Source of the DNA: Cutibacterium porci
GTDB lineage: Bacteria > Actinomycetota > Actinomycetes > Propionibacteriales > Propionibacteriaceae
DNA length: 64,000 nucleotides
Assembly (NCBI RefSeq): GCF_009696315.1
Contig: NZ_VUMG01000001.1
Span: 620,001-684,000, forward strand
Reading direction: 5' to 3'
The notes under the pieces were generated by a model. The model saw only the letters and a list, made by a program, of their open reading frames with translations. It was not told the DNA's origin and did not search any database. The translations under genes were made by a program, and so were the position numbers. Positions 8,142 through 15,067 of this stretch are shown in pieces; positions within the stretch are counted from its first letter, which is position 1, and the number at the start of each line of letters is the position of its first letter.

Positions 8142-9365
8142 ATGATGCCGTTGTCACGTCGCACCAAGAACCTGTTGCTCACCGCCGCAGCGTTCCAGGG
8201 CGCTGGGGATTTCATGTTCGGCGCCGTGTACGTCATCTTCCTACGCTCGATCCCTCTCGACGGGCGGGCCATCGGCTTTGTGCTGGCGCTCGCTACGGGT
8301 GTGTCCTTGGTCGTCGAAGCCCCCAGTGGAGCCATGGCCGACCGCTACGGTCACAGACGGATACTCCTGGCAGGGCTGTTGTCGTGGGCGGTGGGCCTGA
8401 TAGCCCTATCCTTCGCATCCTCGGCCCTGGCTGCCGGTGGTGCGCTGCTGTTGTGGACGATCGGCATGGCCCTGCAATCGGGAACAGTCTGGCCGATTCT
8501 TCTCGGAACGGTCACCGAGGAGGACAAGCAGGATGCCATTGCGCAGTACTCCCGGCAATCCCAGTCGGTGCACTGGATGGCCTCGTTCCTGGGCGCCATG
8601 GCGGTGCTCGTCCTCGGGGCACGTTGCGACATGCGCTTCATCCTTCGTACTGCGGCCGGGCTGCTCGTGCTCGCCCTCGTGGTGTGCCTGTGGTTGCCCA
8701 AGGATGTCCGGCCAAGCGAGCGGCAGCCCGTGCTGGCGGTGCTCAGGTCGTCCTTCGGCTGGTGCGCGAGCCGGACGATTCTCCCGCTCGTCGTCGCGTC
8801 CGGGTTGTCGACGGTGTGCATGACCGGGCTGGTCGTCACGTGGCAGCCGAGGTTGGCGGCAGCCGGTGTTCCCCTGGAAGCGAACGGGGCGGTGTTGGGC
8901 GCACTGACGATCGCTGCGGCGGTGGGTTCTTTCTGCACCAAGTTCGTGAAGGTTTCCAGGCCACAAGGCGCTTTTTCGGCCATGGCTGGGATTTCGGCGT
9001 GTTTCTTGGTCGTGGCTCTGGCCGGAGGAACTCTCTGGGTCGCCCTCGCGGGCTATGTCGTCGCGGAGTTCTTCCTGGGGGGCATGTTCGTCGAGCTGGG
9101 AGCGTGGCAGCAGGAGATGTTGCCCGATGACATTCGCAATGGCGGCTTCTCGGCGCTTTCGACCATCAGCCTCGTTGTGGCCGTGGTCGTTAACGCCGGA
9201 ATGGGTGAGGTGTGGCAGCGGTTCGGCCTAGCAGTCACCATCGGCTGCGTGGCCTTGGTCATCGTAGTGGTGATCCTGGTCACCGTCTTAGTCAGATCAG
9301 CCTTTCGCGACTCCGACGCCCTCCTGAACCCTCATCGATTCAACTCGAAAAAGGAGATACCGTGA
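8142..9365 (+). CDS. MFS transporter, first gene of the radical SAM operon
   Basis: The 407-residue protein has about 12 hydrophobic helices and the MFS loop motif in GAMADRYGHRRILLAG. SGAMADRYGHR and the VVEAPSG segment just before it are like small exporters of drugs or secondary metabolites. Two adjacent ATGs (8142, 8145) could start it, and AGAGAG upstream is a modest ribosome-binding site. Its stop overlaps the next start (GTGA), and AAGGAG inside its end serves the next ORF. Position at the head of a biosynthetic operon suggests export of the product or self-protection. The substrate is unknown. Confidence 0.87.
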   Translation: MMPLSRRTKNLLLTAAAFQGAGDFMFGAVYVIFLRSIPLDGRAIGFVLALATGVSLVVEAPSGAMADRYGHRRILLAGLLSWAVGLIALSFASSALAAGGALLLWTIGMALQSGTVWPILLGTVTEEDKQDAIAQYSRQSQSVHWMASFLGAMAVLVLGARCDMRFILRTAAGLLVLALVVCLWLPKDVRPSERQPVLAVLRSSFGWCASRTILPLVVASGLSTVCMTGLVVTWQPRLAAAGVPLEANGAVLGALTIAAAVGSFCTKFVKVSRPQGAFSAMAGISACFLVVALAGGTLWVALAGYVVAEFFLGGMFVELGAWQQEMLPDDIRNGGFSALSTISLVVAVVVNAGMGEVWQRFGLAVTIGCVALVIVVVILVTVLVRSAFRDSDALLNPHRFNSKKEIP

Positions 9366-9538
9366 CTGCCACTCACATGCATACCATTACGGATGAATCC
9401 GCAGGTGAACTAATCGTGTTCGACTCGCTGACCTTGGACTGTGTGAGTGTTCCGGCCACATCTGTGGAGCAGGCATACGCTCAAGACGTAGAGTTTGCGT
9501 CTTGGTGGTCCTCACATGAGGCCGCAGACCGGGCTTAG
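9362..9538 (+). CDS. 58-residue ORF, in frame with the radical SAM gene behind it
   Basis: It starts at GTG 9362, overlapping the exporter stop (GTGA), with a strong AAGGAG at 9351-9356 five bases upstream. It ends with TAG at 9536-9538. The peptide begins MTATHMHTITDESAGELIVF, has one Cys (DCVSV) and ends SWWSSHEAADRA. It is in the same frame as the following radical SAM body, which lacks its own start codon. So it is most simply the N-terminal domain of that enzyme, cut off by an amber codon. A free peptide, for example a modification substrate, is the alternative. Confidence 0.65.
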   Translation: MTATHMHTITDESAGELIVFDSLTLDCVSVPATSVEQAYAQDVEFASWWSSHEAADRA

Positions 9539-13703: not shown

Positions 13704-14417
13704 ATGAGAAAAGCCGGACTATGGCGTAAATTGGCAGCGGGACGGTACGAGCTAACTCCTCTGGGTAGTTATATCCGACAATCCTGGCTCCAGGCGCTGG
13801 CGAGAAGTATTCCGGCTCCTTTGTCTGATGCTAGGCAGATCGAGCGGGCAGTACTGCGGCCATCACCACGACGGCTAGTTCAGTTCTCTCTTGTCTGTAT
13901 CGAAAGATCAACGTCTTTTGATGGAGGGTTATCTGTACTGCTCGATCTGCAGCATGCCCTAGCAGGTATGAGCCTGATTACGCAGCTTGGTCGATGTCGC
14001 AATAATGAACTGTCTCTGTGGCCGCTTTCCTCCGATGACTTTGATGTCAGCATCGCCTCTTATGACCCGTTCGAGGGAATGGTCTTCTTGGGAGTGGACG
14101 TTCTGGAGGGATCTTTAGTTGCAGAGTGGCACGAAAATGTGTGGCCGTGGGGCTTCATCCCAACGATTGTGGTCCCCCGGGTTCCGCGATTCCTTCCTCT
14201 CGCTAATAGCGTCGTCCGCCAGCTATGCCGAGCTGAGGAGAGAGCCGTTCTGAGTGAGCGTGCGCCCGAGGGATTCGTGGCACCGTGCGTCGTGACGATC
14301 ATGAGTGCACAGAGAGCGGTCATCAACCGCGCCAACGGGAACGAGAGGTATGAGGAAGGATGCTCGATAGGGGACCTACCTGTCCTTGTGGGAGAAGCTG
14401 GAGTGTCGCAGCGGTAA
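13704..14417 (+). CDS. Unknown protein, N-terminus like prolyl-tRNA synthetase
   Basis: The frame opens at 13635, overlapping the VOC stop. However, 13654-13689 is a perfect terminator-like hairpin, while ATG 13704 has GGAG six bases upstream, so 13704 is preferred (237 residues). The first residues, MRKAGLWRKLAAGRYELTPL, closely resemble the opening of bacterial class II prolyl-tRNA synthetases (lmrkaGlirkLAaGiY.ylPLG). Beyond about residue 35 no synthetase motif 2 or 3 was recognised. The rest has no family I can name. Whether it handles tRNA or an amino acid is open. Confidence 0.6.
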   Translation: MRKAGLWRKLAAGRYELTPLGSYIRQSWLQALARSIPAPLSDARQIERAVLRPSPRRLVQFSLVCIERSTSFDGGLSVLLDLQHALAGMSLITQLGRCRNNELSLWPLSSDDFDVSIASYDPFEGMVFLGVDVLEGSLVAEWHENVWPWGFIPTIVVPRVPRFLPLANSVVRQLCRAEERAVLSERAPEGFVAPCVVTIMSAQRAVINRANGNERYEEGCSIGDLPVLVGEAGVSQR

Positions 14418-15067
14418 GCGATTATGTGGACGAGGCAACAGCGAAAATCGCAGCTCGTCTGGGCCTGCCGACGAAGGCCGACCACATTGACGTGGTTGAT
14501 TCAAGCCGGACGGATGTTGAGGCCTTTACTCACGATGGCGTCATTCACCTCAATATGGACGCGTGGCGTTGCTGGAAGGCACGATGCATTCTTGCTCACG
14601 AGGTAGCACACGCGCTTTTATCGCCGTGCCATTCCGAGCGCTGGGTTGAGGAGACGATTGCTGAGGGCTGCGCGCTCTGGGCTCTTTATACTGTCTCTGG
14701 CCCGCTCTATGAGGCCTCGCTACATCTACTTGTGGCCAGCAACCGCGCTCGGTTGTTCCCTGGACCACTCCCTGACGCGCTGTCGTGGTACGGGTTGGGC
14801 GCTCTCTCTGTCTCTCATCGGTTAGTTGCTGGAGAAATCGATGCGTCATATTTAGTGGAGGCACTCTTATCTGCAGAAGATAGTGGATTAGTGCTGGCAA
14901 AGCAGCGATTCGTGGCTCCACCTGAGATAGAAATGTTCGCTCGATATGTAGTGGATATAGACAAAGGTACTATAGGTTGCCATCTGCCTCATTTAGCAAT
15001 GGACAGGCTGTCCAGTGTGACAGACAAAGAAGTATTTAACTGGTGGGATTTTTCAATGGTGCTTTAG
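14360..15067 (+). CDS. HEVAH zinc metalloprotease-like protein
   Basis: ILAHEVAHALL is an HEXXH zinc motif. Eighteen residues after its second His comes the Glu of IAEGCALW, close to the gluzincin pattern HEXXH-X18-E with EG.A. No signal peptide is visible, so it is probably cytosolic. The ATG at 14360 overlaps the previous gene by 58 bases in another frame; GTG 14426 is an alternative start that keeps the motif. It is the last gene of the operon, and a maturation protease is an inference. The family could not be named. Confidence 0.65.
   Translation: MLDRGPTCPCGRSWSVAAVSDYVDEATAKIAARLGLPTKADHIDVVDSSRTDVEAFTHDGVIHLNMDAWRCWKARCILAHEVAHALLSPCHSERWVEETIAEGCALWALYTVSGPLYEASLHLLVASNRARLFPGPLPDALSWYGLGALSVSHRLVAGEIDASYLVEALLSAEDSGLVLAKQRFVAPPEIEMFARYVVDIDKGTIGCHLPHLAMDRLSSVTDKEVFNWWDFSMVL

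Follow-up and report, generated by a model that had tools for sequence, protein, structure and literature searches.

A 64,000-nucleotide stretch of DNA from Cutibacterium porci (contig NZ_VUMG01000001.1, positions 620,001 to 684,000), hereafter the window, contains at positions 8142-15067 a compact operon with all genes on the plus strand, including three genes for radical S-adenosylmethionine (SAM) proteins, here called rSAM1, rSAM2 and rSAM3. The operon starts with a gene for a major facilitator superfamily (MFS) exporter (8142-9365), followed by rSAM1 (9362-10609), which carries an in-frame TAG, and by genes for an M29/NicX-like protein (10606-11334), rSAM2 (11331-12272), rSAM3 (12266-13174), a vicinal oxygen chelate (VOC)-like protein (13186-13638), a class II aminoacyl-tRNA synthetase (aaRS)-like protein (13704-14417) and a protein with an HExxH sequence, HEVAH (14360-15067). 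Overlaps of 4 bases join MFS to rSAM1, rSAM1 to the M29-like gene and the latter to rSAM2, and an overlap of 7 bases joins rSAM2 to rSAM3. The open reading frames (ORFs) placed here by an initial annotation are present at their positions, and its picture of a single-strand operon with an MFS exporter, three radical SAM proteins and an HEVAH protein has held. The MFS protein (PF07690, 4e-15) and the three radical SAM proteins are backed by Pfam; the names M29, VOC and aaRS, taken over from the same annotation, reflect motifs or weak matches and have no Pfam or NCBIfam model behind them among the window proteins. The lower GC content that it had noted applies to the enzyme genes (0.50-0.56) and not to the MFS part (0.62-0.64), and because of this contrast the operon may be composite in origin.

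A separate 58-codon ORF had been listed ahead of the SPASM-type radical SAM gene, and had been considered as a possible substrate. It starts with GTG at 9362, behind AAAAAGGAG, with a strong Shine-Dalgarno (SD) sequence, AAGGAG, ahead of the start, and ends at the TAG (9536-9538); it lies in the same frame as rSAM1, and the codons after the TAG continue into QKRRIYARKPCRINNFRILLTEKCNFQCTYC of that gene. Neither an ATG, GTG or TTG codon nor a ribosome-binding site is found between the TAG and the CxxxCxxC motif (CNFQCTYC) of rSAM1. In intact relatives this motif is preceded by ~100 residues (a protein encoded on a plasmid of Streptomyces sp. NBC_01727) or ~95 residues (proteins of a cluster type with two radical SAM genes, called the pair type below). 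With a profile of the N-terminal domains of relatives, the 58 residues rank first of 1001 (E 0.034; best shuffle 0.45), and they align in register with that domain (GELIVFDSLTLDCV versus GEAVLLDPVTLDSV). The codon signal weakly favors continuity of the frame from the TAG to the cysteines, as 11% of off-frame segments score equally high. Each of these lines is modest, but the shared frame, the lack of a later start or SD sequence, the length of the relatives and the profile match together argue convincingly that the 58 codons are the N-terminal part of rSAM1 and that the stop lies within the gene. The ORF thus appears to be neither a gene of its own nor a substrate, but a part of the enzyme severed by a stop codon. 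The TAG is known from the sequence of one strain. The stop would probably leave the pathway broken or nearly inactive in this strain, or reliant on readthrough, and the operon is probably degraded.

All three radical SAM proteins keep intact CxxxCxxC and GGE motifs and match PF04055 (rSAM1, 5e-19; rSAM2, 4.5e-24; rSAM3, 3.6e-15). In rSAM1 the CNFQCTYC core is accompanied by a C-terminal CDGCIAEAICGGPC...C, features of SPASM radical SAM peptide maturases in the broad sense. Its top family model is PapB (NF047865; 1.8e-37 over almost the full length, 129.3 bits versus a cut-off of 340); it also scores against other SPASM peptide maturases, and in the PDB it finds radical SAM maturases along with enzymes related to them. 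For rSAM2, the scores against a number of SPASM families reach 112 bits at most and stay far under the cut-off, and MoaA, NirJ and PqqE-type models are matched as well; the protein has no clear counterpart in the NBC_01727 cluster and no close relative in the tree. rSAM3 is the only operon protein to match the SPASM Pfam model (PF13186, 4.6e-4, just under the cut-off), by its SPASM-like tail. It aligns over 280 residues with the second radical SAM protein of the Streptomyces cluster (L050:14880-15764; E 3e-11), which is also the nearest entry by tree path, and this match gives good support to rSAM3 being its likely counterpart. Matches of all three proteins to viperin in a library of defence proteins are generic radical SAM matches and not meaningful. 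A further SPASM-type radical SAM gene lies elsewhere in the same genome (G000:C1:72163-72630) and has relatives in several congeners.

The M29-like protein is related to a protein of the Streptomyces cluster (L050:13061-14032), a link well supported by an alignment with 40% over 84 residues (E 3e-7). Its motifs are GE, VELG, WHIG and HxD, and residues E144, E188, H212, H229 and D231 are invariant between the two proteins; they stand in the order of M29 metal ligands (E, E, H, H, D), and we take them to be metal ligands. The protein has no match to PF02073 at E 0.1 or to any family model and no significant match to a true M29 protein, and a PDB search with the pair returned a chance match only. 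The VOC-like gene follows an 11-base gap with a strong ribosome-binding site of its own (GAGGAGA) and encodes a 28-residue N-terminal extension; the protein matches nothing in Pfam, NCBIfam or PDB and is named by pattern alone, and its AlphaFold model, made without alignments, has a predicted local distance difference test (pLDDT) score of 41 and is unusable. Just past its stop codon lies a strong hairpin (13651-13692, plus strand) with 16-nt arms that are 94% complementary and a UUCG loop; the region 13636-13715 folds at -41.3 kcal/mol (z -4.5), and none of 200 shuffles is equally stable. The hairpin would be an attenuator or an mRNA-end structure and may set the expression of the last two genes. 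The longest frame of the aaRS-like gene can be read from 13635, and an SD-like GGCGGAG precedes 13704; because the longer frame begins on the strong hairpin, 13704 is the more likely start. The aaRS-like protein appears degenerate and, by eye, resembles prolyl-tRNA synthetase (ProRS); over 53 residues it weakly matches the ProRS of the same genome at a motif 1-like segment (E 0.097 among 8 proteins), it has no match to Pfam or other families, and its structure model, likewise made without alignments, is unusable (pLDDT 34). The HEVAH protein is gluzincin-like by motif, with the HExxH followed by EETIAE, and matches PF01435 below the cut-off (0.046) and the phrog_87 metallo-protease family (0.0015); its gene may start at 14426 instead of 14360.

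The genome that carries the operon is 2.6 Mb in size, and the analysis drew on nine members of its genus. The alignment to the nearest congeners breaks at 6453 (6452-6456) and resumes at 15968, delimiting an island of ~6453-15968, in place of which the nearest congeners hold ~3.1-3.4 kb. To the left of the operon a scar without an intact gene (6453-8141) begins with a dispersed repeat of ~92 bp (6452-6544), which has dozens of copies, often in close pairs, in one congener (G008) and occurs in several others as well. Fragments that recur elsewhere in the genus follow, with 6540-6899 matching G004 and G008 at 84-87%, and the translations of this scar contain no long intact frames. To the right lies a pseudogene of an IclR-family regulator (15206-15871, plus strand), split over frames: PF01614 matches 15405-15719 at 1e-16 and, in another frame, 15713-15871 at 0.04. 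Decay is thus present at the edge of the island. Because of the alignment break, the scars and the absence of a close rSAM1 in eight congeners (0/8), acquisition of the operon by horizontal transfer in this lineage is well supported, in agreement with the scarred flanks and transfer proposed initially. Farther along the window, the minus strand carries a cobalamin riboswitch at 54220-54380 (76 bits); Rfam matched nothing else in the 64,000 nucleotides.

The closest cluster, itself uncharacterised, is on the plasmid of Streptomyces sp. NBC_01727 (NZ_CP109164.1, 650603-659904). A search of plasmid proteins gave one close relative of rSAM1, from this plasmid, with 35.5% identity over 95% of the part after the stop (E 2e-60), the next matches being far weaker. 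Around this gene are a 66-codon ORF and genes for M29-like, HExxH, radical SAM, MFS, class II aaRS-like, oxidoreductase and cytochrome P450 proteins. The MFS proteins of the two clusters share 30% identity over 350 residues (E 2e-34), and the alignments of rSAM1 and of the exporter establish common ancestry with the Streptomyces cluster; the M29-like proteins are well supported as homologues too, and the second radical SAM protein is the one nearest rSAM3. The HExxH and aaRS-like resemblances appear to be of kind only, and the Streptomyces aaRS-like protein (PF00152, 5.7e-20), which belongs to the Asp/Lys/Asn type, shows no detectable relationship to that of the window. The Streptomyces cluster differs further in that its rSAM1 is intact and preceded just upstream by the 66-codon ORF, which has an SD sequence and one CxxxD motif (CLPYD), in that an oxidoreductase and a P450 are encoded downstream, and in that counterparts of rSAM2 and of the VOC-like protein are missing. 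Recurrence of the gene set in other genomes is therefore partial. No other plasmid record carries the M29-like or the aaRS-like protein of NBC_01727.

A second related arrangement came from a sample of 393 actinobacterial genomes of 7-11 Mb from a Streptomyces-like genus, 25 of which encode a relative of rSAM1 at E 1e-20. In all 14 loci read (L068-L081), on which the following counts rest, a conserved 118-residue protein is encoded with two radical SAM proteins, one of them the relative of rSAM1, and 12 of the 14 add a cupin/JmjC-like protein and, on the opposite strand, an aspartyl-tRNA synthetase (AspRS). This pair type resembles the operon in its rSAM1 relatives (E 6e-31 to 5e-47 with rSAM1 of the window) beside a second radical SAM gene and in the adjoining aaRS gene, and differs in that its aaRS is a full-length AspRS and no match to the M29-like, HExxH, MFS or VOC-like proteins was found. 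The cluster AspRS is additional to a standard AspRS elsewhere in all five pair-type genomes tested, and two cluster-free genomes of the genus have no extra copy; on one reading, the extra AspRS may be a resistance copy. In the tree, rSAM1 of the window and of NBC_01727 are grouped at 93/86 with the pair type as their sister (86/81). Actinobacterial genomes, sampled in sets of 296 to 396, were searched with the M29-like, aaRS-like and rSAM1 queries and gave no further cluster, which speaks for rarity and not uniqueness; viral contigs and plasmid DNA similarity gave none either, and a scan of genome contigs with rSAM1 gave distant archaeal radical SAM proteins only. The literature searched contained no description of the window cluster or of the pair type. 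Together with the family models, this agrees with the earlier statement that the operon matches no described class.

We lean, at slightly better than even confidence, towards the operon being a horizontally acquired radical SAM peptide-maturation operon of the kind that makes ribosomally synthesized and post-translationally modified peptides (RiPP-like), partly homologous to the NBC_01727 plasmid cluster. This reading draws on the Streptomyces gene set, that is, the 66-codon ORF, intact rSAM1, M29-like, HExxH, second radical SAM, MFS and aaRS-like genes. For the intact pathway, the substrate, chemistry and order of steps can be sketched as follows. The N-terminal domain of rSAM1 would bind a short precursor peptide, which in Streptomyces would be the product of the 66-codon ORF, and the enzyme, of SPASM type and closest to the PapB model, would introduce a radical crosslink. 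rSAM3 and rSAM2 would make further radical changes, and the M29-like and HExxH proteins would trim the peptide. The aaRS-like protein might add an activated amino acid or point to translation as the target; the VOC-like protein might bind the product or protect the host, and the MFS protein would export the product. Several results weigh against this maturation reading. When both strands were scanned for small ORFs with an SD sequence, no candidate precursor with a good ribosome-binding site turned up outside the known island genes, the family scores all lie below curated cut-offs, and the HEVAH and aaRS-like proteins give no significant alignment with their Streptomyces counterparts, which are perhaps analogues only. 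Moreover, the likeness of the 58 residues to the N-terminal domain, taken alone, is modest (E 0.034 in the set of 1001; E 0.058 in a second comparison).

The small-ORF scan bears out the initial remark that no clear precursor peptide is present: an identifiable RiPP precursor gene was not found in the island, nor was a free-standing short ORF with Cys-X3-Asp/Glu motifs beside the maturase. A short ORF next to the radical SAM genes, which the annotation had suggested looking for, exists in NBC_01727, and no separate precursor ORF was found in the island. The 58-codon ORF has the best ribosome-binding site among the free-standing small ORFs of the island and lies directly upstream of the maturase, like the 66-codon ORF in Streptomyces; it would be a true precursor if rSAM1 began at a rare codon past the TAG. 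We rejected it on the grounds of its frame, the missing start codon after the TAG and its match to the profile of N-terminal domains from intact relatives, and consider such a role very improbable. The same low probability attaches to the N-terminal extension of the VOC gene (MKNCDIIFNDSINESDLCARSGLHSPSP) being a precursor with a VOC domain fused to it. The gene has its own SD sequence and is followed by the strong hairpin, and DLCARS was likened to DICSRS of the Streptomyces 66-residue ORF, but chance suffices to explain the resemblance, since 212 of 5000 shuffles reach the same score or a higher one, and against the same peptide other proteins of the operon do as well or better; this candidate was therefore rejected as well.

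Two broader alternatives are unlikely but deserve more weight. One holds that the pathway is alive, the TAG being read through or a wrong base in the assembly, so that a full-length rSAM1 of ~415 residues is made, perhaps at a low level. All other ORFs of the operon are open, the start signals upstream of 9362 are strong and the codon signal, weak as it is, stays in frame past the TAG; however, neither a suppressor nor a recoding signal was identified, in this group UAG is an ordinary stop, and the regulator pseudogene in the right flank indicates that decay is under way close by. According to the other, the product is not a peptide, and an amino acid, nucleotide or cofactor is modified, with the aaRS-like protein adenylating. 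The failure to find a precursor, the MoaA, NirJ and PqqE-type scores of rSAM2 and the recurrence of an aaRS gene in related clusters would fit this proposal, whereas the peptide-maturase type of rSAM1 and its N-terminal domain, the short ORF beside rSAM1 in Streptomyces and the two peptidase-like proteins argue for a peptide.

If the maturation reading is correct, an uncharacterised family of Streptomyces radical SAM clusters is linked to a probable skin bacterium, and the chemistry can be tested at a defined locus in Streptomyces, where the maturase is intact and a candidate for the precursor exists; the 58-codon ORF should then not be pursued as a precursor. That aaRS genes recur hints at a product related to translation or at an unusual step of amino-acid addition. 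It is conceivable, though rather doubtful, that Actinomycetota harbor an undescribed group of radical SAM peptide clusters with class II aaRS-like proteins and that the window contains a diverged member; the aaRS paralogue of such clusters would either extend the peptide by an amino acid or reveal a product directed at translation.

In the EpmA/EpmB system, which lysylates elongation factor P (EF-P), a class II aaRS paralogue and a radical SAM enzyme act together on a protein. The operon resembles this system in the logic of combining an aaRS paralogue with a radical SAM enzyme but does not belong to it at the sequence level, only the Streptomyces aaRS-like protein scoring weakly against EpmA (30 bits). 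Another comparison is with the PapB ranthipeptide maturases (NF047865). The island contains no PapA-like precursor with multiple CxxxD motifs, and rSAM1 stays at 129 bits against the cut-off of 340; PapB is the top family match of rSAM1 over nearly its full length, and the two share a SPASM-type cysteine pattern. PapB crosslinks Cys to Asp or Glu within CX3D/E motifs (PMC9413430), and CLPYD in the 66-residue ORF of Streptomyces recalls this motif, which makes it a lead, and not a proof, for the chemistry of this cluster.
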